The notes under the pieces are model-generated. The model did not search any database. It saw nothing but the letters and a program-made list of their open reading frames with translations, and was not told where the DNA came from. Both the position numbers and the translations under genes were made by a program. Below, piece after piece: positions 1-21,767 of a stretch of DNA of 22,254 nt. This DNA is from a virus. Position 1 is the stretch's first letter. Each line of letters begins with the position of its first letter. The stretch is taken from IMG/VR virus record IMGVR_UViG_3300030333_003234, positions 1-22,254 of that record. One strand, written 5' to 3'.

Positions 1-2369
1 CTAGTGGAAACCACCAAAGCACGGTAAACAATCTTACTGGCAACACTCCAATTTATCCTAACCCATTCTCCAAAACTAACTGGATGGGCAATCTTAAGAT
101 TTCCCCATCAAGCGATGATTGGTTTGCAATGGAAAAGGTTAGTAAGAAAGTTAAGCACACAGAAACATACAATAAAACTGTAGTCATACCAAGGTACAGA
201 TATTACGGACACGCTTGGTACGGAACCAACTGGTGGAGAAATCGTTATTATGGATGGAACAGAGGTTGGTGGAGATGGGGTCATTGGTGCGGGTGGAGAC
301 ATCGCTACTGGCACAACTGGAACGGTCGATACGACTATTGGCGTGCCCGCTATGGCGGATGGGGCTATGGTTCTGGATACTGGAATAAGTGGAGTGCCTG
401 CACAAAGACCTATGGTTCAAATACTGCCGCTTGGACTGGAAGTGCAACCTGCAAGAGATGGAAATCTTGGGGTATAAGAACAGGTTGTCTTGCAACAAAA
501 ACTGTAAAGGCAAAACGAACTGTTTGGAAGAACATCGTAGAAGATGTCAAGATGAGAGTTCGTCCAAAGGAACTAACTCTTACCGCTACATTTATGAAAC
601 CAAACACTCGATTCTGGGTATTTGTTGATGGAAAGAGACAGACAGAAAATACACAAGCCAATACTGGTTATGTGGTTGCTGGCTCAAGTACTATGCGTAC
701 TGATGCAGGTGGTAACGCATCTGTCAAGATTCAAATTCCAAAGGACAACCCATACAGTGAAGGTGAACTTCTTATCCGTCTCACAGACAACAAAGATAAT
801 GTCGCATCTTTGTCAACCACAACAGCAGAAGAATTCTTTGTTGTTGGTGGTGTAAAGAATGACGATGCATCTGGAGTCAAGAGTACCAGACCAGTTCGTG
901 CTAAACGAGATAGTGTTCAGCAGGAAAGAATTGTTCAAGATGCAAGCACAATGGGAGAGGGTCAACTTCTCACGGGTGTTGCTGACTACTTCGACCCAAT
1001 GGCACAAATCTTTGAGATTGACCAAGAAAAATATGGTGACGGAGTTTACGCTTCAAGTGTAGACCTGTTCTTCAGAGATGTGGACGGTGATGCAGTAGGA
1101 GCCGATACTATCGGCGAACCATTACCATTCGCGGTTGAAATCAGACCACTTCTGAATGGTATGCCACACCCAACCACAGTCTTGCCGTTTAGTTTCACAT
1201 CAATCGGTGGAACTGCTGGTATAACTGGTTCGAAAAATGGCCCAGACACAAGCAAATTTACTCGCTTCGAGTTTAGTTCGCCTGTTTATCTTGCCTCTGG
1301 AAGATACGCATTAGTTTGCAAGACTAATAGTAAAGCATATACTCTATGGGGAACACAGATGGGTTCGAAAGGTCTTTCTGCCGATGGTAGTTCTACCGAT
1401 AGTGATGTCGAAAGACAACCATACGTTGGAAATCTATTCCAACCACAGAACAATGGTTCTCGAATTGAACAAACTGACAAGCAGATTATGATGCGACTCA
1501 ACAGAATGACGTTCCCAACTGGGGGTCCTGACAATGCGTACCGCCTAGAACTTGAAGGAAGTACGCAGGGTGTTCAGAACCAAGTTGGCACTGATGTAGA
1601 ATCGCCAGACTTCCACGAAGTCGTTCTTCTTGCTTCTGATGCAAAAACACCAGACTGTCAGGTAGATTACTTCTTGAACTACACTGGTCCAGAACCAAAG
1701 GCATATCAGTTACAGCCTTGTGAGGAACTCATTATACCACGAAGGCAAACTCTTGTGTTGGAAGAACAGACTGGTACTGAACCATCCATTGCACACGTTC
1801 TAATGTCAACTACAAATGAAAACATTACTCCAGTGGTAGATATGGATAGGTTGAGTCTTGTTCTTAGTAGATACGAACAGGGCAATGATACTTCACAGGA
1901 ACTAATGGCAAGTCCACCAGTGGACGAAGACAATCCAGTTGCAAGATATATTGGAAACATAATCAACTGTGGTCAGGAAGCAAACGTAATACGAGTTAGT
2001 TTTGAAGCAACAAGAAAAACAGGAACAGGATTTAAAGTATATGCCAAATGTGGTGTTGCCGCAGATGAAACAATTACTGAAAATCCGTATGTTGAACTAA
2101 CACCAGAAATTACAAACCAAACTATGCCTGCTACCACAGACGAACCCTATAAGCAGAAATTCTACTATAGGAAACCAAATGGATTTACTGATTTCCAAAT
2201 TAAGATTGTATTGACTGGTGACCCACTAAGTTCAGATTATAGTACAATCTCCTCTATGAGAGCATTTGCAATGTATGATGCAACCATCGACACTACAGTT
2301 GGTGGAGTAGGTGATGTCTACGCCGCAGGTGAAGGTGCAGACGCTAGCCAAGGAGGAGATGCAGGATAA
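1..2369 (+). CDS. Large virion structural protein, tail/baseplate-associated (5' partial)
   Basis: The reading frame is open from the left edge (first full codon at 3) to a TAA at 2367-2369, so the true start lies upstream; the ATG at 84 is internal. The visible part is about 788 residues. A segment starting NPFSKTNW and containing ISPSSDDWF, then RPKELTLTATFMKPNTR followed by a 'VFVDG' stretch, then a domain with DPMAQIF, FFRDVDG, VEIRPLLNG and VLPFSF, match from memory a family of large virion proteins of T4-like cyanophages (DUF4815-type architecture). These are thought to belong to the tail or baseplate; the exact place is inference. The rest (about nt 1500-2300) looks beta-rich with no motif I know. 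Between the first two conserved blocks lies an extreme Trp/Tyr/Arg-rich stretch (nt 216-392). It could instead be a host-contact adhesin subunit. Family confidence moderate, function low. Confidence 0.7.
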   Translation, partial: SGNHQSTVNNLTGNTPIYPNPFSKTNWMGNLKISPSSDDWFAMEKVSKKVKHTETYNKTVVIPRYRYYGHAWYGTNWWRNRYYGWNRGWWRWGHWCGWRHRYWHNWNGRYDYWRARYGGWGYGSGYWNKWSACTKTYGSNTAAWTGSATCKRWKSWGIRTGCLATKTVKAKRTVWKNIVEDVKMRVRPKELTLTATFMKPNTRFWVFVDGKRQTENTQANTGYVVAGSSTMRTDAGGNASVKIQIPKDNPYSEGELLIRLTDNKDNVASLSTTTAEEFFVVGGVKNDDASGVKSTRPVRAKRDSVQQERIVQDASTMGEGQLLTGVADYFDPMAQIFEIDQEKYGDGVYASSVDLFFRDVDGDAVGADTIGEPLPFAVEIRPLLNGMPHPTTVLPFSFTSIGGTAGITGSKNGPDTSKFTRFEFSSPVYLASGRYALVCKTNSKAYTLWGTQMGSKGLSADGSSTDSDVERQPYVGNLFQPQNNGSRIEQTDKQIMMRLNRMTFPTGGPDNAYRLELEGSTQGVQNQVGTDVESPDFHEVVLLASDAKTPDCQVDYFLNYTGPEPKAYQLQPCEELIIPRRQTLVLEEQTGTEPSIAHVLMSTTNENITPVVDMDRLSLVLSRYEQGNDTSQELMASPPVDEDNPVARYIGNIINCGQEANVIRVSFEATRKTGTGFKVYAKCGVAADETITENPYVELTPEITNQTMPATTDEPYKQKFYYRKPNGFTDFQIKIVLTGDPLSSDYSTISSMRAFAMYDATIDTTVGGVGDVYAAGEGADASQGGDAG
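216..392 (+). other. Trp/Tyr/Arg-rich low-complexity segment inside the first virion protein
   Basis: Fifty-nine codons of the first gene's frame encode 15 Trp, 9 Tyr and 9 Arg, with Gly, Asn and His filling most of the rest, for example GWNRGWWRWGHWCGW. The DNA is rich in TGG and GGATGG. The same stretch is also free of stops in the +1 frame from 250 to 477, where it would read as a Gly/Asp/Thr-rich peptide, and in minus-strand frames. The main frame is open on both sides and joins conserved blocks, so I read the segment as real protein, but a pair of compensating frameshifts cannot be excluded from one sequence. Confidence 0.75.
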
Positions 2370-2560
2370 TGTATGAACGAGTAACAGGCGAGGAACATCT
2401 TTATAGAGATTTGAACAGCAATGCTATTGTAAATACAGATATTGCCAGATATAACGAGATAAAACGGCGTGCTAGAGAAAAAAATGAAATAAATAATCTG
2501 AAGAAAGATGTTTCGGAAATCAAAAATCTTTTGAAAGAATTGATAGACAAGAAGGACTAA
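2369..2560 (+). CDS. Small coiled-coil protein, unassigned phage protein
   Basis: A 63-residue, highly charged protein. Residues 1-25 (MYERVTGEEHLYRD..., then NAIVNTDIARY) are followed by a Lys/Glu/Arg-rich segment whose heptad-like hydrophobic residues (EINNLKKDVSEIKNLLKELI, about 40-59) predict a helix or short coiled coil. Its ATG overlaps the preceding TAA by one base (TAATG), and AAGGAGGAG at 2350-2358 is a strong ribosome site at normal distance, which fixes the start. Similar short 'YRD...G.IVNTD..Y' proteins occur, as I recall, beside structural genes of marine T4-like phages. Its placement between a virion protein and a fibre suggests an assembly or chaperone role, but that is inference. 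Confidence 0.75.
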   Translation: MYERVTGEEHLYRDLNSNAIVNTDIARYNEIKRRAREKNEINNLKKDVSEIKNLLKELIDKKD

Positions 2561-2563
2561 TAA

Positions 2564-5371
2564 ATGGCAAGTAGTCTCCATTATGTAACACCTCTACAAC
2601 TTTCAGACACCTTCAACGAATGGTTTCTGAGAAGCAATAGTCTTATTGATGTTGTCAATAAGATTAATGTATACAATGTGGATACTGGCTGGGGTCTAGC
2701 CAAGTATCGAAGTGTAGATGGAACAACTCTTATCCGTCTCAACATTGGACAAAAAGGAACCGAGTATGCAGGTGCAGGAGTTTCCTCCGACTATGCGTTC
2801 GGTTTGAAGTTCATTGAGCCTATTTCCAGTGACGTTACAGGGGCTGCTAACCCAGACGTTTCTTCGAATAGAAGAATCCTTACTCTTGATTTCCAGAACC
2901 TACCAGGCCACAGTGGTGGTATTTCTGGTGCAAAGGTTATGGGTGGAGATTACTTTGCATTCGCAGATTCCACAAGTGCAACTTGGGGTGTAAAGAAAGT
3001 TCTCGCAAGAGATATGCTCCCTTATGGAATTAGCGGTGACCATAGATTCTACGGAAACATTTACTTCGACGGAACAAACACAGTAATCAATTCGTCGGAA
3101 CTTCACATCGATGACCATAGAATTTTCCTCGCAACAAGTAATACTGGTGACGAAGGAATTGGTTATCTAAATGATGTCAACCTAGATGGTGCTGGTATTG
3201 TTATTAAAGGTGCATCAGGCGACAAAGAATTTACATACGAATATACAGAAACTGCTGGTAGTACATTCCACGCATTCAAATCTAATATTGATTTGATGTT
3301 TGGTGCAACCGTTAGAGCCTTGTCGGAAGATAAAACTCTTGATTTCTTTGCATTGGTTGACGATGACTTTGATATTAGTCTTTCACAATTAAATTCAGAA
3401 AACAAACTGTGGAAAATTAGAAAGAGCAAGATTGGCGATACCCAAGGAAGATTAATATTCTTCCACGAAAATCTAATTGCGGGTTCATCACAGGATGCAC
3501 TTACCCTCAATAAAGAAGGCGGAGTCGTAATTGGAAACCTAGAGGGAACACAACTCATTGCTGGTGTTACTCACGAATCTTCATTCTCTTATCTCCCTGC
3601 TTCACAGTCCATTCCCACTACAGGTCAAACGGGCGACAAGACTCTTCATTACAAGTGGGCAAACAGAAAAACAGTTTACCAAGCAAACCACGGATTCTCT
3701 TCTGGACAACTTCTAAGACAGTATCCACTAGGAACCGACCCCGCTGGTGCAACTTACGCACACGCAAACTGGTTATCGAAAGAAAACGCTGAAGTAATTG
3801 CTATCGTTGAAGACCACGCACCTGGCGGAAGTCACGACCAGTTCATTGCTGTTTATGGTGGTATTGTTGACCTTGCTAACTGGGACCCAAGCATAGGTGC
3901 GGCGGGCTGGACATTCAGTGATGGAACCACAATGTCCAAAGGTCAGGTATATTTCCTTGGCCCTCCCGGCACTTCTGGAGGATTTACTTCTGCCGCTCCC
4001 GATGTCACTGGACTGATTAAGAAACCAGTCCTCCTTGCACTCGACGAAAGAGAAGCACTCTTTGTCAACTATCTTGGACACGAAGTTTCCACAGGTGGCG
4101 TAGCGTCAGGTGTTAGTGGTTCAGTATCATATACAAACAGTGCAGGTTATCTAAACCTCGCGGCATCTGTTCCCAACCAAGAATACAAAAACAAACTTAT
4201 TAACGGTGACTTCTACTTCTGGCAAAGAGCAGAATTTGGTGATGGTGGTAGTTTCGGTTCTATATCACAGGGTGCAGTTAATTATAATGGTTCGACTGGA
4301 GCAAGATTCAGTGCAGAGGGTGGTACATTTATGTACACATCAGATGGATGGGCCATTGACACAAGACCAAATGGTACAGCACTAGAAGTTCAAAAACTCG
4401 GTCACACTGCTGGACAGTCTCTCTTTGGTGACTCTTACTACACACCAATGGCAAGAGGAAAGGGTTCTTACGCAAGAGTAATCAACAATGTCGTAGGTAC
4501 TCCTGCAAATAAGAAGTCTTACTTTACCCAGAGAATTGAAGATGTTACTTCTCTTTCTCCAGTCGATGGAGTTGGACACGCAACAGTAAGTTACTATGCA
4601 AGAGGTGTCACTAATGCACCTGCGGCATTGAACGCTTTCCCAATGAGAGTTTCTCTTTGGCAAGTATATGATGGAAACAGCGGAGACGGAACTCCTGGCT
4701 CCAGTGGAAACTACGGAGGCGGAGCAACAATGTGCTTGGGTGTTACCATCACAGAAGGATTCCAAAGTGGTGTTACCAGTGCAACTGGTGGTCAAGTTTC
4801 ACTACCCACATCGGGAGATTGGTCAGACAAACAAACACATACCTTCCAAGTGCTGACCCCGCTTGCAATGACATCGGATGCCCCATCTGCTGCCGCTATT
4901 GATGCAGACAACAACTGGTTGGAACTCAGATTTGAAATTCCAACAGAATGGGGAGTCAGTGGTGGTGTTGATATTGCAAGAGTTCAACTCGAAAGAGGAG
5001 ATGAATCAACAGACTTTGATGGAAGACCACTTCAAATAGAAGAAACATTATGCAATAGATATTTCCAAAGACATACGGTTGGAATTAGGTCTTATGGTGC
5101 CGTTGGCGACACGGGAGGAGCATTGATTCCTTGGAAGACAACACCGTACCCCTACTGTGGTAATACGCCGTTTGATGTTGACCTGTCTACCAAATGCATC
5201 AATGCAAAGGATTTGGTAACTCCAGTAAATACAAGAGCCGCTGGTATAACCACTGCGGATATTTTTGGAGCAACCGCAGGAATGGGATTCGATGTTCGTA
5301 GAGTAAACAACGGTAGTGTCGGAATGATAATCGCAAGAACAGAATACGACTTTGACTTTGGAATTTATTGA
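2564..5371 (+). CDS. Tail fibre-like protein, 935 residues
   Basis: Residues 1-45 (LQLSDTFNEWFLRSN..., IDVVNKINVYNV) resemble the N-terminal part of fibre proteins in T4-like cyanophages. Around 180-250 a block with DDHRIFLAT, GAGIVIKGASGDKEFTY and SNIDL matches the recurrent fibre motif I recall as 'GGGI.IKGT.DKTF.Y'. A module at about 380-506 (ENAEVIAIVED, FIAVYGGIVDL, LFVNYLGHE) and a C-terminal domain from 545 (LINGDFYFWQR ... VQLERG ... ETLCNRYFQR, about 827-836) also occur in the next gene. The C-terminal domain resembles carbohydrate-binding-like ends of phage fibres, so host recognition is likely. There is no signal peptide or membrane segment. The start ATG follows the previous stop by three bases, with AGAAGGA just upstream. 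Whether it is the main receptor-binding fibre or an accessory one cannot be told. Confidence 0.85.
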   Translation: MASSLHYVTPLQLSDTFNEWFLRSNSLIDVVNKINVYNVDTGWGLAKYRSVDGTTLIRLNIGQKGTEYAGAGVSSDYAFGLKFIEPISSDVTGAANPDVSSNRRILTLDFQNLPGHSGGISGAKVMGGDYFAFADSTSATWGVKKVLARDMLPYGISGDHRFYGNIYFDGTNTVINSSELHIDDHRIFLATSNTGDEGIGYLNDVNLDGAGIVIKGASGDKEFTYEYTETAGSTFHAFKSNIDLMFGATVRALSEDKTLDFFALVDDDFDISLSQLNSENKLWKIRKSKIGDTQGRLIFFHENLIAGSSQDALTLNKEGGVVIGNLEGTQLIAGVTHESSFSYLPASQSIPTTGQTGDKTLHYKWANRKTVYQANHGFSSGQLLRQYPLGTDPAGATYAHANWLSKENAEVIAIVEDHAPGGSHDQFIAVYGGIVDLANWDPSIGAAGWTFSDGTTMSKGQVYFLGPPGTSGGFTSAAPDVTGLIKKPVLLALDEREALFVNYLGHEVSTGGVASGVSGSVSYTNSAGYLNLAASVPNQEYKNKLINGDFYFWQRAEFGDGGSFGSISQGAVNYNGSTGARFSAEGGTFMYTSDGWAIDTRPNGTALEVQKLGHTAGQSLFGDSYYTPMARGKGSYARVINNVVGTPANKKSYFTQRIEDVTSLSPVDGVGHATVSYYARGVTNAPAALNAFPMRVSLWQVYDGNSGDGTPGSSGNYGGGATMCLGVTITEGFQSGVTSATGGQVSLPTSGDWSDKQTHTFQVLTPLAMTSDAPSAAAIDADNNWLELRFEIPTEWGVSGGVDIARVQLERGDESTDFDGRPLQIEETLCNRYFQRHTVGIRSYGAVGDTGGALIPWKTTPYPYCGNTPFDVDLSTKCINAKDLVTPVNTRAAGITTADIFGATAGMGFDVRRVNNGSVGMIIARTEYDFDFGIY

Positions 5372-5390
5372 TAGGAATTAGGAGCAATAG

Positions 5391-7766
5391 ATGGCATATA
5401 GTGCATTCTCAGGACTAAACGCAGGTAACGCTGGAATCAAGAAAACGATTCGGCAACCTAATAGCCTATCAGTAGGTGATGCTGTTCGTTTGGATGGCTC
5501 TACCTATGTAAAGGCGGCAGCGAACTCTGCGGAAAATGCAGAAGTCATTGGTATCGTAGAAGAAGCAAACAGTAACCAGTTTGTTATTGTTTTCGCTGGT
5601 GAAGTTCAACTCGGTGAGATTACAACCGAAGCAGGAACACCGTACTACTTGTTACCTTCATACGCTGAAGGTGCATCCAATATTGACTCTTCGCCTCCCC
5701 TCACAACAGGTACAGTTAAGAAATGTGTCTATATTGGAATGGGTGGAAACCGAGCAATTGTTGTTAACTATCTTGGACTTCTTAATGGTTTCGAAGGTGG
5801 TGACCAAGTATCACTAACTGGTGTAAGTCCAGTTGGTCAGATTATTCCTTTTGCTGGTGATGTTGTAAATGGAATTCCAGAAGGTTGGTTGCTATGTGAT
5901 GGTGGACAATTTGATAGTGCAACATACCCAGAACTTGCACTTATGCTTGGAGACATTTATGGTCAAAGAGCAGGAACTCTGTTTAGACTTCCAGACTTGA
6001 GAGGTAGATGTCCAATTGGTGTGAACACCGACAATGCAGTTCAAGACCCAGAAACAGAAGCGGGACTTGCACAGCGAGTCATAGGTGATATGGCAGGTAG
6101 AGATGAAATCAGTCTTGGTATTTCTGAAATCCCAGGCCACAATCACCCTTCATCTTACATCGCATTCGTTGATGAGAATGGTGGAAACTATCCAAGAGTC
6201 GAAGCGGATACACTAAAACAATATGGACCTTCCGATACAAGACCTGATGGTGTTCCTCTGGACGATGGTGAAACATACGCACAAATAGATGACTCAGGTC
6301 CAATTGTTGGTAACGATTGGACGTTCTGGACATTTAGTTCAGGTGAAGACCACGATTACAGAAAAGTAGAATATCCTTCAACCACAAGCCTTGCGGGTGG
6401 TGGACAACCGTTTGACAATATGCAACCTTTCCTTGTTACGAACTGGTTGATTCGTGCAGACAACAAAGTTTCTGCCGCAATTCTTACAGTCAACGCTCAG
6501 GATATGGCAGATGTAGATTCTTCTAAAGCATTCGACGCCCAAGCAGGCGGAGTGCTAATGTACAATGCCGTCGATGACATCCAGAACCCAAGAAATGCAA
6601 AGGGAGGAAATGATAAGTTTGTCATTACACCTCTGCAAGACCAAGATAGAAATATCTTAATCAATGGAAACTTTGACATATGGCAAAGAGGAACTTCCTT
6701 CAGTGCTGGCGCACAACAATATAATTATTCCGCAGACAGATGGTGTCACACACAAGCCGCTGGTTTCGGAGTTAGTGCTTCAATCGGAGAACCACATTAT
6801 ATGTTTGGTTTGACTGTTGGGACTGACCACCCATTTGCTCTCGGTTTCTCTAACTCTCCTGGCAAACATTGTCTTGCATACCGAAACACAGAAGTAAAAA
6901 CTGGAGCATATGCAACAAATGATTACTGCCAGTTTAATCAGATTATTGAAGGTTCACAGTACGCAAGAATCTGGGCTGCTGGACATATGACTTTGAGTTT
7001 CTGGGTGAAGTCAAGAAAAGCAGGCATTCACACAGTAAGTTTCAGAAATAGAGCGTATGGTAGAAGTTATGTTGCAGAGTATAACGTCACTAATCCCGCA
7101 ACTTGGGAATGGAAATCAATCACTGTTCCAATCGATACACAGAATCCAACCCAATGGGATTTTGATTCCAACACTGGGTTGAGAGTTGCTTTTAGTATTA
7201 CAAAATGTGGTTCAAACTATACGACTACCACTCCTGGCTCTTGGATTAGTGAAAATAGAACTTGTACAGCAAACCAAGTAGACACCCTTGATGGTGTCCC
7301 TTCGGAAACTGAACCTACATTTGCAGTCACTCAGGTTCAACTTGAGCCTGGACAAATAGCAACTCCACTGCAACACAAGACACTCGGAAGAGAGTTGGAG
7401 TTGTGTGAAAGATATTATGAAAAGAGTTTCGATTTAGGAATCGTGCCAGGAACTGCGGCTTATTCCACATCGATTCACGAAGACGATTGGGTAATTTCCA
7501 ATACCGCTCACATCGGATTACGCTTCAAGCAAAGAAAAAGAATTTCGCCTAGCGTGACAATGTACAATGGTAGATACGGAACTGTAAATCAATTCTATCT
7601 TCTTCATAGAGAGTCAGGAAGCAGTGAAAACCATACTGTTTCATCTATTGCATCCAGTGAAACTGGAATTCGTAGTGTTACCAGAACATCTAACTCTACT
7701 ATTATTGCAGGATATAGAAACAAAATGGCATTCCACTACACAGCGGATGCAGAATTCAGAGACTAA
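5391..7766 (+). CDS. Tail fibre protein with phage tail-collar domain, 791 residues
   Basis: Residues about 15-131 repeat a module of the preceding fibre (ENAEVIGIVEE at 48-58, VVNYLG at 124-129). From 149 comes a clear phage tail collar domain (Pfam Collar type): GQIIPFAG, PEGWLLCDGG, YPELALMLG, then LPDLRGRCPIG at 200-210. GHNHP at 249-253 has the HxH spacing that binds metal in the T4 short tail fibre gp12 and long-fibre tip gp37 trimers; metal binding here is inferred. The C-terminal domain begins LINGNFDIWQRG (423-434) and ends with TQVQLEPG (647-654) and ELCERYYEKSF, the same type as in the neighbour. The start has TTAGGAG upstream. It probably forms a trimeric fibre or short-fibre analogue that contacts the host surface. 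The collar assignment is firm; the exact fibre type is not. Confidence 0.88.
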   Translation: MAYSAFSGLNAGNAGIKKTIRQPNSLSVGDAVRLDGSTYVKAAANSAENAEVIGIVEEANSNQFVIVFAGEVQLGEITTEAGTPYYLLPSYAEGASNIDSSPPLTTGTVKKCVYIGMGGNRAIVVNYLGLLNGFEGGDQVSLTGVSPVGQIIPFAGDVVNGIPEGWLLCDGGQFDSATYPELALMLGDIYGQRAGTLFRLPDLRGRCPIGVNTDNAVQDPETEAGLAQRVIGDMAGRDEISLGISEIPGHNHPSSYIAFVDENGGNYPRVEADTLKQYGPSDTRPDGVPLDDGETYAQIDDSGPIVGNDWTFWTFSSGEDHDYRKVEYPSTTSLAGGGQPFDNMQPFLVTNWLIRADNKVSAAILTVNAQDMADVDSSKAFDAQAGGVLMYNAVDDIQNPRNAKGGNDKFVITPLQDQDRNILINGNFDIWQRGTSFSAGAQQYNYSADRWCHTQAAGFGVSASIGEPHYMFGLTVGTDHPFALGFSNSPGKHCLAYRNTEVKTGAYATNDYCQFNQIIEGSQYARIWAAGHMTLSFWVKSRKAGIHTVSFRNRAYGRSYVAEYNVTNPATWEWKSITVPIDTQNPTQWDFDSNTGLRVAFSITKCGSNYTTTTPGSWISENRTCTANQVDTLDGVPSETEPTFAVTQVQLEPGQIATPLQHKTLGRELELCERYYEKSFDLGIVPGTAAYSTSIHEDDWVISNTAHIGLRFKQRKRISPSVTMYNGRYGTVNQFYLLHRESGSSENHTVSSIASSETGIRSVTRTSNSTIIAGYRNKMAFHYTADAEFRD

Positions 7767-18607: not shown

Positions 18608-20143
18608 ATGCCAGTTGACTTTTTTGGATTTACTATTGGGAGAAAGAAAGACGCGGGTAAAGTTGGTTTAGAATCAACCATCCGTCGCCCTGTCTCATTT
18701 GTCCCACCTGATTTTGATGATGGTGCAACTACTATTGAGTCTGGCAATTTCTTCGGTCAGTATGTTGATTTTGATGGAAACATCAGAAACGATATTGACT
18801 TAATTAAACAATACCGAGCAATGTCACTGCATCCAGAAATCGATACAGCGATTGAAGATATTGTAAACGAAGCAATTGTTCAAGACGATATTAAGAAAAC
18901 CGTCGAGATGGATTTAGAACACGTTGACTTACCCGACAACGTAAAAGATAAAATGCAAAAGGAGTTTGAGCATATTCTTAAACTTCTTCATTTCAGTGTT
19001 CGAGGATATGAAATTTTCCGTAAATGGTATATTGACGGAAAATGCTATTTCCATATTGTTATTGATGACAAAAAGGAAAAATCAGGTATTCAAGAACTAA
19101 GACCTATCGATTCAACTTCTATTCGTAAGATTAGAAGAATAGACAAAGAAACTAATGACGAAGGAATCAAAGTCATTAAGGATGTCGAAGAGTTCTTTAT
19201 CTACACCGAACAAGACAGAGATGATAGATTGGGCGACCCAATGGCTGCTCAAGAGGGAATTAAAATTCACCCCGACTCAATCATCTATGTTACTTCGGGA
19301 ATGTTTGATATAGACAAGAAGAGAGTTTATGGGAATCTTCATAAGTGCATCAAGCCACTTAACCAACTTCGAATGATAGAAGATGCGGTGGTAATCTATC
19401 GGATTTCTAGAGCCCCCGAGCGCCGCATCTTCTACATCGATGTTGGTTCCCTTCCCAAGAACAAAGCAGAACAATATCTTCGTGATATTATGAATCGTTA
19501 TAGAAACAAACTAGTGTATGATGTAAACACTGGCGAAATTCGTGACGATAAAAAACATATGTCAATGCTTGAAGACTTCTGGTTACCTCGTCGTGAAGGC
19601 GGTCGTGGTACAGAAATCGATACCCTATCTGGTGGTGAAAACCTCGGAGAGATGGAGGATGTCGAATACTTCAAGAAGAAACTATATCGTGCATTGAATG
19701 TTCCAATTAGTAGACTCGAACCAGATAACGGTTTCAATATGGGTCGTTCTTCAGAAATCCAAAGAGACGAACTAAAGTTCTTTAAGTTTGTTGAAAAGAT
19801 GAGGCAAAAGTTTGCTGAATTATTCTTACAAGCACTAAGAGTACAACTCGTTCTTAAAGGAATTATGAGCGAAGATGATTGGCAGAAAATCAAAGACGAT
19901 GTAAAGTTTGACTTTGCAAGAGATTCATATTTTACCGAACTAAAAAACAATGAAATTCTAACAGAAAGAATGAATCTTCTTTCTTCTATGAATGAACATA
20001 TCGGTAAATACTACTCTATCGATTGGATTCGAAAGCATATTCTCCATCAGTCCGAAGAGGAAATCAAGCAAATGGATGCTGAGATTCAGAACGAAAGAGA
20101 ACAAGGACTTATTAGCACAGACGGAACAGAGGAGTACTATTGA
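18608..20143 (+). CDS. gp20: Portal vertex protein gp20
   Basis: The 511-residue protein (T4: 524) has all the characteristic blocks: an early DLIKQYRAMSLHPEIDTAIEDIVNEAIV, YEIFRKWYIDGKCYFHIVID, ELRPIDSTSIRKIRR, IYVTSGMFD, VVIYRISRAPERRIFYIDVG (ending about 280), KHMSMLEDFWLPRREGGRGTEI, LSGGENLGE and FNMGRSSEIQRDELKF. Twelve subunits form the ring at one capsid vertex that nucleates prohead assembly, docks the gp17 motor and later joins the gp13/gp14 neck. The start ATG follows AAAGGA (18596-18601) after a 30-base gap from gp19. The stop overlaps the next ATG (TGATG). Confidence 0.97.
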   Translation: MPVDFFGFTIGRKKDAGKVGLESTIRRPVSFVPPDFDDGATTIESGNFFGQYVDFDGNIRNDIDLIKQYRAMSLHPEIDTAIEDIVNEAIVQDDIKKTVEMDLEHVDLPDNVKDKMQKEFEHILKLLHFSVRGYEIFRKWYIDGKCYFHIVIDDKKEKSGIQELRPIDSTSIRKIRRIDKETNDEGIKVIKDVEEFFIYTEQDRDDRLGDPMAAQEGIKIHPDSIIYVTSGMFDIDKKRVYGNLHKCIKPLNQLRMIEDAVVIYRISRAPERRIFYIDVGSLPKNKAEQYLRDIMNRYRNKLVYDVNTGEIRDDKKHMSMLEDFWLPRREGGRGTEIDTLSGGENLGEMEDVEYFKKKLYRALNVPISRLEPDNGFNMGRSSEIQRDELKFFKFVEKMRQKFAELFLQALRVQLVLKGIMSEDDWQKIKDDVKFDFARDSYFTELKNNEILTERMNLLSSMNEHIGKYYSIDWIRKHILHQSEEEIKQMDAEIQNEREQGLISTDGTEEYY

Positions 20144-20862
20144 TGTCTAAGAACTTCAAAGATTTTATCAATGAAGCAGAAGAGAAGGCACCCGCTCCAG
20201 CGAAAGCACCAGAGCCAGAAAAGACTGCTGATTCTCCAGAGATTGCTTTAGACCCAAGACTAGAAAAAGAAGTCTACATTGACTCCTTTGAAGTTCAGGG
20301 CAAAAATGTTGTTATAAAGTCTTTGGGTTTAGGCCCAACGAAACCTGTTGTCGTTTATGTGGATGATAAGAGATGGGAAGTCTTCCCAGGTCCTCGAATT
20401 GCAAAAAGAGAGGCAAGAAGATATGTCAAGAAAATGGCAACTAAGTTAGAAAATCTTGATGTTGATTTTGAAAAACTTCTAGCAGAGTCAAATATCTACA
20501 ACAAACGAGAAGTATCGAAGTGGCTACAAAAGAACAAAAGAAAATTTGACAATAGCACAGAAGCGGCATTTGCAGTTGCTGACGAGTTTGGTATGGAAGA
20601 TGAACTTGAAGATGAAAAACATTGGATTTGGGATACTCTCAAGAAGATGTATAAAGAGTCATTCGATTTGGATTTATTCGTAGACAAACTCTTGGATGGA
20701 ACCAAGATTAAGATTGATGAAAAAGCGGCTAAAAATGTAAAACTAGTCTATGACCTACTGGACGAATCAAATAAAACGAAGTTCAGAGAGGCGTTTATTA
20801 TAAATAAAGAAAATCATAACAAGGTTATGAAATTCGTAGAAGAACAAACTAAAGGAATTTGA
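20143..20862 (+). CDS. Unassigned head-region protein with putative capsid-targeting peptide, 239 residues
   Basis: The start is ATG 20143, overlapping the portal stop as TGATG; a TTG one codon upstream is less likely. The first eleven residues, MSKNFKDFINEA, resemble the T4 internal-protein capsid-targeting peptide (MKTYQEFIAEA, from memory), and I-N-E|A fits the gp21 protease site (L/I)-x-E|(A/G/S). A second possible site is L-A-E|S near 113-116. An Ala/Pro/Glu linker (15-35) is followed by a predicted alpha/beta region (VYIDSFEVQGKNVVIKSLGL, then VVVYVDDKRWEVFPGPRIAKRE, about 44-90) and a helical C-terminal half. There is no membrane segment. The neighbours are all prohead genes, so it may be a core or internal protein packaged with DNA. 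I recognise no domain; the role is inferred from position and N-terminus. Confidence 0.72.
   Translation: MSKNFKDFINEAEEKAPAPAKAPEPEKTADSPEIALDPRLEKEVYIDSFEVQGKNVVIKSLGLGPTKPVVVYVDDKRWEVFPGPRIAKREARRYVKKMATKLENLDVDFEKLLAESNIYNKREVSKWLQKNKRKFDNSTEAAFAVADEFGMEDELEDEKHWIWDTLKKMYKESFDLDLFVDKLLDGTKIKIDEKAAKNVKLVYDLLDESNKTKFREAFIINKENHNKVMKFVEEQTKGI
20799..20806 (+). promoter_or_regulatory. Exact T4-type late promoter octamer TATAAATA
   Basis: TATAAATA lies in the last part of the 239-residue gene, 57 bases before the gp67/68-like ATG at 20864. It would allow separate late transcription of the small core protein and gp21. Being inside coding sequence, a chance occurrence is possible. Confidence 0.4.
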
Positions 20863-20863
20863 T

Positions 20864-21112
20864 ATGCCATATAGTGAAGATAAACCAATTACAACAAAGG
20901 ACGTAATCGACCAAATTGCGGCAAAAAATCTAGACGGTGCAAGAGATGGAATTCAAGATATTCTCTACAAGAAATCTGCTGAAGCAATGGCAGATAAGAA
21001 AGTAGATATTGCAAAGAGTATCGGAAACCCAGTTGACCCTCACGCAGATGTCATCGACGCACCTGTTACCGCCGACCCAGTTGATTACGAGCCTACAACT
21101 AGCGAGGAATGA
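20864..21112 (+). CDS. Prohead core protein, gp67/gp68-like, 82 residues
   Basis: A small acidic protein located between the portal region and gp21, exactly where T4 has genes 67 and 68. Residues 10-53 (TTKDVIDQIAAKNLDGARDG, then a block ending KKVDIAKSIGNPV) follow the pattern 'xxxLIDAIxxxDxxxAKxxFxxIMxxKxxExxxxKKxExAxxxF' that I recall from T4-like prohead core and scaffold proteins. The C-terminus is Asp/Pro/Thr-rich and probably disordered. Such proteins form the inner scaffold with gp22 and are cut by gp21. It starts one base after the preceding stop and ends one base before gp21. Whether it corresponds to 67 or 68 cannot be settled. Confidence 0.7.
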   Translation: MPYSEDKPITTKDVIDQIAAKNLDGARDGIQDILYKKSAEAMADKKVDIAKSIGNPVDPHADVIDAPVTADPVDYEPTTSEE

Positions 21113-21113
21113 A

Positions 21114-21767
21114 ATGAGACTAATAACAGAAACAACCGAAGATGTAAAATACATCGTTGAAGCAAATGAAGAAACTGGTAAGAAAAGCCACTTCATTGAA
21201 GGTATCTTTATGCAGTCTGAGCAGAAGAACCGAAACGGAAGAGTCTATCCCAAGAATACTCTTATGAAGGAAGTTTCTCGTTATACTAAAGAACTCGTTG
21301 AAAGCAAAAGAGCAATGGGTGAACTTGGTCACCCCGAAGGACCTACTCTCAATCTAGAGAGAGTTTCCCACATTATCACTGAACTTAAAGAAGACGGCAA
21401 TAACATTGTGGGTAAAGCAAAAATTTTAGATACTCCTTATGGGAATATTGTAAAGAACCTTATCGACGAGGGCGCACAACTTGGTGTTTCTTCTCGCGGT
21501 ATGGGTTCTCTCAAGAAGAACGATGATGGAGTCAATGAAGTCCAAGAGGACTTTATGTTGGCTGCTGTTGATATCGTTGCAGACCCTTCTGCACCAGATG
21601 CCTTTGTGAATGGCGTTATGGAAGGTAAGGAATGGGTATGGGAGAATGGCATTCTTCAACCTAGAGTTATTGAGCAATACAAGGAGTACGTCTTATCTGC
21701 AAAGGATAAGAACCAAATTGAAGAAGCCAAACTAATCGTATTCAAACATTTCTTGTCTAATTTTTGA
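21114..21767 (+). CDS. gp21: Prohead protease gp21
   Basis: The frame is open from further upstream, but the start is ATG 21114 (MRLITETTED), which matches the family and follows the previous TGA by one base after GAGGAATGAA. The 217-residue length is close to T4 gp21 (212). Motifs include FIEGIFMQSEQKNRNGRVYP, GELGHPEGPTLNLERVSH with candidate catalytic His73, and LGVSSRGMGSL with candidate Ser126 or Ser127; Asp153 or Asp157 in VDIVADPSAPDA may complete the site. The family (MEROPS U9/S80-like, herpesvirus-assemblin fold) cuts scaffold, core and capsid proteins at (L/I)-x-E|(A/G/S) sites during head maturation and then itself. It acts inside the prohead with gp22 as partner and main substrate. 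Confidence 0.96.
   Translation: MRLITETTEDVKYIVEANEETGKKSHFIEGIFMQSEQKNRNGRVYPKNTLMKEVSRYTKELVESKRAMGELGHPEGPTLNLERVSHIITELKEDGNNIVGKAKILDTPYGNIVKNLIDEGAQLGVSSRGMGSLKKNDDGVNEVQEDFMLAAVDIVADPSAPDAFVNGVMEGKEWVWENGILQPRVIEQYKEYVLSAKDKNQIEEAKLIVFKHFLSNF

Follow-up and report, generated by a model that had tools for sequence, protein, structure and literature searches.

The window analysed here, a 22,254-nucleotide stretch at the start of a 38.7-kb viral record, carries head genes in the order terminase, sheath, tube, portal, X, gp67-like, gp21 and gp22 scaffold, with gp23 lying beyond the window, further along the record. Gene X (20143..20862, + strand) encodes a protein of 239 residues plus stop in the prohead-core locus, with the N-terminus MSKNFKDFINEA. 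Its ATG start codon overlaps the TGA of the portal gene gp20 (18608..20143, +; PF07230, E 5e-179) with a gap of -1, an arrangement found likewise in nine of nine close homologues. Downstream lie a separate gp67-like core gene of 82 residues (20864..21112, +; phrog_683, E 2e-6), whose family T4 gp67 also matches at E 1e-3, and the prohead protease gp21, a peptidase S77 (21114..21767, +; PF03420, E 6e-40; phrog_207, E 6e-82). This gp21 is presumed to be the enzyme that processes X, and the phage's own gp23 carries ALLAE/A close to where gp23 of T4 is cut (here and below the slash marks the known or inferred place of a cut).

Against seven homologues the dN/dS of X is 0.07-0.15, compared with 0.045-0.068 for the portal gene. 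X is therefore a real gene, conserved under purifying selection and not fast-evolving. Searches of Pfam and PHROGs with X returned no significant family, a PDB sequence search gave nothing below E 0.25, and Foldseek found no PDB match below E 0.2, its weak matches being small uncharacterised viral beta proteins. No structure-library match assigns X a function.

The prefix and the body of X

The idea of a capsid-targeting sequence is reportedly that of Mullaney and Black. Residues 1-12 of X, MSKNFKDFINE/A (20143..20178, +), form a prefix of this type with an inferred gp21 site after Glu11, and they match the MKTYQEFIAE/A with which T4 IPII and IPIII both start; IPI starts MKTFKEF. In the IPIII tag, residues 4 and 7 are the main determinants of targeting and residues 8 and 10 those of processing, with gp21 cleaving after L/I-x-E (PMC9026906). 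Phe5, Phe8, Ile9 and Glu11 of X fall at the matching targeting (aromatic, Phe) and processing (Ile, Glu) places. A regular expression patterned after this tag recovered three of 343 T4 open frames, which are ipII, ipIII and gp24, and one of the 100 open frames in the 38.7-kb record, which is X. The genes ipII, ipIII and gp24 encode known gp21 substrates. Given how rarely the expression matches in either, the prefix is more than a chance resemblance, and the likeness to a targeting peptide that an earlier note had read from the sequence is upheld. A looser expression returned seven T4 frames: the annotated head genes gp2, ipII, ipIII, gp22 and gp24, all with a Glu within the first 12 residues, together with alc and one unannotated antisense frame.

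By the gp21 recognition rule, which is a short motif, X has L/I-x-E sites at FINE11/A and LLAE115/S. INE/A is present in six of the nine members of the prefix-bearing group (window counted), the exceptions being L024 with INE/E, L058 with FTE/A and L060 without a clear site. The I-N-E/A site proposed earlier fits the cleavage rule, although its Ala is not strictly conserved. The second candidate, which the earlier note missed, occupies residues 112-116 (LLAE/S; 20476..20490, +) beside a low-confidence linker. Its equivalent in most close homologues reads FLSE/A, FLAE/A or LLAE/A, often preceded by ES(V/I)D, whereas the window's own X has E/S; from the sequence, Glu115 looks like a second gp21 site within a linker.

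Between the two sites, residues 13-29 (20179..20229, +) form an Ala/Pro/Glu-rich linker of low model confidence, followed by the best-conserved part of X, a module of ~68 residues (residues 30-97; 20230..20433, +) with the pattern LDP...KPVxVYxDxxRWExFPGP. This beta module is modelled as four strands and a helix, with a pLDDT of ~75-89 over residues 41-100. Residues 117-164 (20491..20634, +) are helical and resemble a small protein encoded in the jumbo-phage assembly LR745208 (tblastn of residues 97-164, 38.9% identity, E 3e-6), in which the counterpart segment is also preceded by LLKE/A. The C-terminal domain (residues 177-239; 20671..20859, +) recurs elsewhere: the last ~60 residues of X are found in a separate 87-residue ORF of L012 and at the ends of larger proteins, including the ESVELDEA polyproteins described below. 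AlphaFold models were moderate (pLDDT 64 and 70; the X model pLDDT 70, pTM 0.30), with low confidence at residues 1-37 and ~101-110, four strands at 43-81 and a helical C-terminal half.

The assembly LR745208 (L014) also contains two adjacent ORFs (4977-5258 and 5272-5970) that share a near-identical leader, TLRSKLIRLAH...LRP.LLPLL, on unrelated bodies; it looks like a leader peptide of this jumbo-phage assembly.

The module family and its gp67-type N-termini

An alignment-based scan for the module matched 125 IMG/VR stretches, 80 of which were fetched. Removal of duplicates left 57 distinct module genes, the window included, all of one locus: 56 begin no more than 60 nt from the portal stop codon, and the remaining piece does not reach the portal. 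By tblastn, X and its relatives had no module homologue among 50,697 phage records, where only fragments of other domains were found. The capsid-targeting prefix is not kept across the family; it occurs in nine of the 57 members, and the other 48 have gp67-type or other N-termini, with an N-terminal region of at least 50 residues in 45 and a shorter one in three. The gp67-type label on these 45 is a length rule, for which 13 representatives were tested. Taken one by one, eight of the 13 hit phrog_1064, the family of T4 gp67 (best 3e-5; T4 gp67 itself 2e-30), and the 13 pooled match T4 gp67 in hhalign at 91.8% (E 7e-7). X itself gave no match to phrog_1064 and is thus without the gp67-homologous helical domain. 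By the refuting condition of the earlier note, homologues without the prefix, its claim fails outside the immediate clade, where another core-type domain stands in place of the prefix.

In the head operon X immediately follows the portal gene, like genes of the gp67 family (phrog_1064). T4 gp67 (Pip, a prohead core protein) stands behind the portal gene as X does and is homologous to the N-terminal domain of most X relatives, but it has an acidic tail and lacks the beta module and helical C-terminal half of X; the window has its separate gp67-like gene besides an X that lacks the gp67 domain. T4 gp68, another prohead core protein, is likewise encoded by a core gene inside the portal-protease interval, although the gene order differs. 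Identity of X with gp68 was rejected, X having no phrog_1049 match up to E 1 where gp68 matches at 2e-71. The earlier note had held that T4 has no such gene of 239 residues between portal and protease; this particular gene is indeed absent from T4, but the T4 core genes 67 and 68 lie there. Head proteins of phiKZ and SPN3US resemble X, as read here, in bearing N-terminal propeptides that a gp21-type protease removes by cleaving after Glu (PMC5694885), and differ in their motifs (A-x-E in SPN3US), their mostly longer propeptides and their unrelated proteins.

In a tree of the portal proteins, the nine prefix-bearing members fall inside one group of ten (100/98). The tenth, L010, is gp67-type, nested within the group and adjoining L024, and the nearest outgroup (L064) is gp67-type, as are most members elsewhere in the tree. 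In the simplest reading the ancestor was gp67-type, the prefix arose in the window's clade, and L010 either reverted or acquired its form by recombination. Within the gp67-type domains, the best alignment of the prefix is to the conserved FK.LI segment (column-permutation p 0.013), and KTFKDLSND of L010 matches KNFKDFINE in frame at the DNA level (21-22/27 nt in three members, p up to 0.0015). Because L024, the closest sister of L010, does not match it significantly where expected (p 0.107), the idea that the tag descends directly from the gp67 helix, by trimming of a gp67-type domain, is suggestive only. As far as sequence can tell, the short tag and the whole gp67-type core domain appear to be interchangeable N-termini.

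Shared prefixes and polyproteins in related phages

A scan of IMG/VR for exact FKDFINEA, the search that the earlier note had proposed, found seven ORFs outside the X family. In five of them the motif lies at residues 3-6, and these five are unrelated to X, one being a RimK-type ATP-grasp protein, so the prefix does occur on unrelated proteins as anticipated. Some of the five adjoin T4-like replication genes, their contigs carrying uvsX, gp41, gp43-45 and regA among others. In the relative G001 (IMGVR_UViG_3300025676_000004; 134.8 kb), similar prefixes are found on cytidylyltransferase-RimK, SAM-lyase-like and DUF6267 proteins and on a 485-residue unknown protein. The SAM-lyase-like protein (113103-113714, -; in L050; PF23780, E 2e-11) starts MSKQYKQFINES, a capsid-targeting-type prefix, and is possibly a head-carried, SAM-degrading anti-restriction enzyme. 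Proteins of G001 (107692-109722, -) and L041 (2816-4300, +) that are RimK-type ATP-grasp plus zinc-protease-like have FDFLNEA or FKDFINEA prefixes, and one of them also has a cytidylyltransferase domain; they are candidates for packaged protein-modifying enzymes.

Other relatives have longer proteins at the position of X. In L028 a 500-residue protein (2136-3635, +) runs from a gp67-type N-terminus through the module and a DUF192 domain (PF02643, E 7e-24) to a C-terminal domain of the X type. A G001 polyprotein with repeated ESVELDEA linkers (1500-3947, +) was the seed of a linker pattern scan that found at least 120 contigs, and 29 of the 79 ORFs read contain two or more ESVELDEA-type linkers. 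Of the 78 linker loci, 19 show portal or gp21; there 11 of the ORFs begin at the portal, and 15 are found upstream of gp21 at a distance of no more than 3 kb. Polyprotein-like ORFs with small domains and repeated ESVELDE/A linkers, often placed exactly between portal and protease and sharing the C-terminal domain of X, were also seen in L153 (8743-10578, -), L211 (3806-5647, -), L172, L205, L147 and L159. The L153 and L211 proteins, both in the portal-protease position, combine a short, gp67-like-looking N-terminus that was not confirmed by profile with several linkers and a C-terminal domain of the X type; the collection of 50,697 phage records contains no match to the L211 protein. The linkers fit the L-x-E rule of gp21, and the residue after the cut is A, G or S at 26 of 48 linkers (binomial p 2e-7 against an assumed 20%), a count from which linkers matching the search pattern were left out because the pattern forces Ala. 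In the literature searched, no mention of the string ESVELDEA was found. The motif ~YRxFFxxALKKxGVSSPxEL...KKKFFNYIxxNWKG (phrog_28651) lies inside or ends several core-locus proteins, in L012 (4659-5621; residues 277-320), L027 (5420-5773) and L148 (5192-5746).

A probable role of X in the prohead

The N-terminus of most relatives is a gp67 homologue and the tag is found in the window's clade, which argues that X is a core-locus protein docked through its tag. We therefore consider it probable that X is a prohead-core protein of an uncultured T4-like phage, one in which the prefix does the docking in place of a gp67 domain and which gp21 cuts after Glu11, possibly also after Glu115. X would be expressed as part of the head operon, along with the portal, the gp67-like protein, the protease and the scaffold, and FKDFINE would bind the assembling core where relatives use the gp67-type domain. 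Once the shell closes, gp21 would cut after Glu11 and free the body of X from the core, and a possible second cut after Glu115 would detach the helical C-terminal half from the beta module. These fragments might then remain in the capsid or leave it. Packaging and cleavage of X are likely, whereas ejection would be a further, more conjectural step.

The earlier note had proposed a new internal head protein. The prefix, the gp21-type site, the right locus, purifying selection and the recurrence of the prefix on unrelated proteins of T4-like phages all speak for one, but not for free-standing cargo of the T4 internal-protein kind, because X belongs to a syntenic core-locus family with mostly gp67-homologous N-termini. 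T4 IPII and IPIII share with X an N-terminal prefix of 10-12 residues that has matching targeting and processing positions and ends in I-x-E/A. X differs from them in lying in the core operon, in being conserved, syntenic and larger, in its second candidate site and in having relatives that bear a gp67-type domain in place of the prefix. That X is nonetheless an internal protein in the full T4 sense, packaged and trimmed at Glu11 and then ejected into the host to act as an effector or anti-defence protein, strikes us as unlikely. Its prefix is closest to those of IPII and IPIII, and the similar prefixes of G001 stand on possibly host-acting enzymes; against this, X is conserved and syntenic within the core locus, while the T4 genes ipI, ipII and ipIII map to other places and are known to vary between phages (PMC9026906), the body of X is in most relatives fused to a gp67-type domain, and no host-directed domain was recognised in X with Pfam, PHROGs or Foldseek.

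We also give little credence to X as an uncut assembly factor that joins the core through its FK.F part, either left over from the gp67 helix or imitating it, with incidental gp21 sites. FK.F is present in all nine members of the prefix group (as LK.F in L024) and the E/A site only in most, in keeping with such a factor, as are the FK.LI alignment and the in-frame match to L010. Yet the Glu is kept in most members, the whole of FKDFINEA is common to unrelated proteins, and the inner site keeps FLxE/A beside a low-confidence linker. A coincidental prefix on a protein that is not a head protein is very improbable: the motif is short, but the gene adjoins the portal in 56 of 57 loci, relatives have the gp67-type domain, and the prefix is specific.

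Beyond X as a tag-docked core protein, the related-locus polyproteins with ESVELDE/A linkers suggest a general modular-core scheme. We propose it tentatively, as somewhat less likely than not: the interval between portal and protease would, in many uncultured T4-like phages, encode a modular core polyprotein with a docking head (gp67 domain or tag), exchangeable cargo domains between gp21 linkers (ESVELDE/A, FExFLxE/A) and a common C-terminal domain. X would be its minimal form, with the gp67-type domain exchanged for, or trimmed to, a capsid-targeting sequence. If true, this would provide an evolutionary origin for the capsid-targeting sequence and an example of a phage polyprotein that matures within the prohead.

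The capsid-targeting sequence of the T4 internal proteins and the gp67 core domain, usually treated apart, here occur as alternative N-termini of one family at one locus. The origin of targeting tags and their core-binding partner thereby become testable. The finding also suggests that a simple sequence rule could predict the head-packed proteins of uncultured phages, and the X locus may hold packaged cargo domains.
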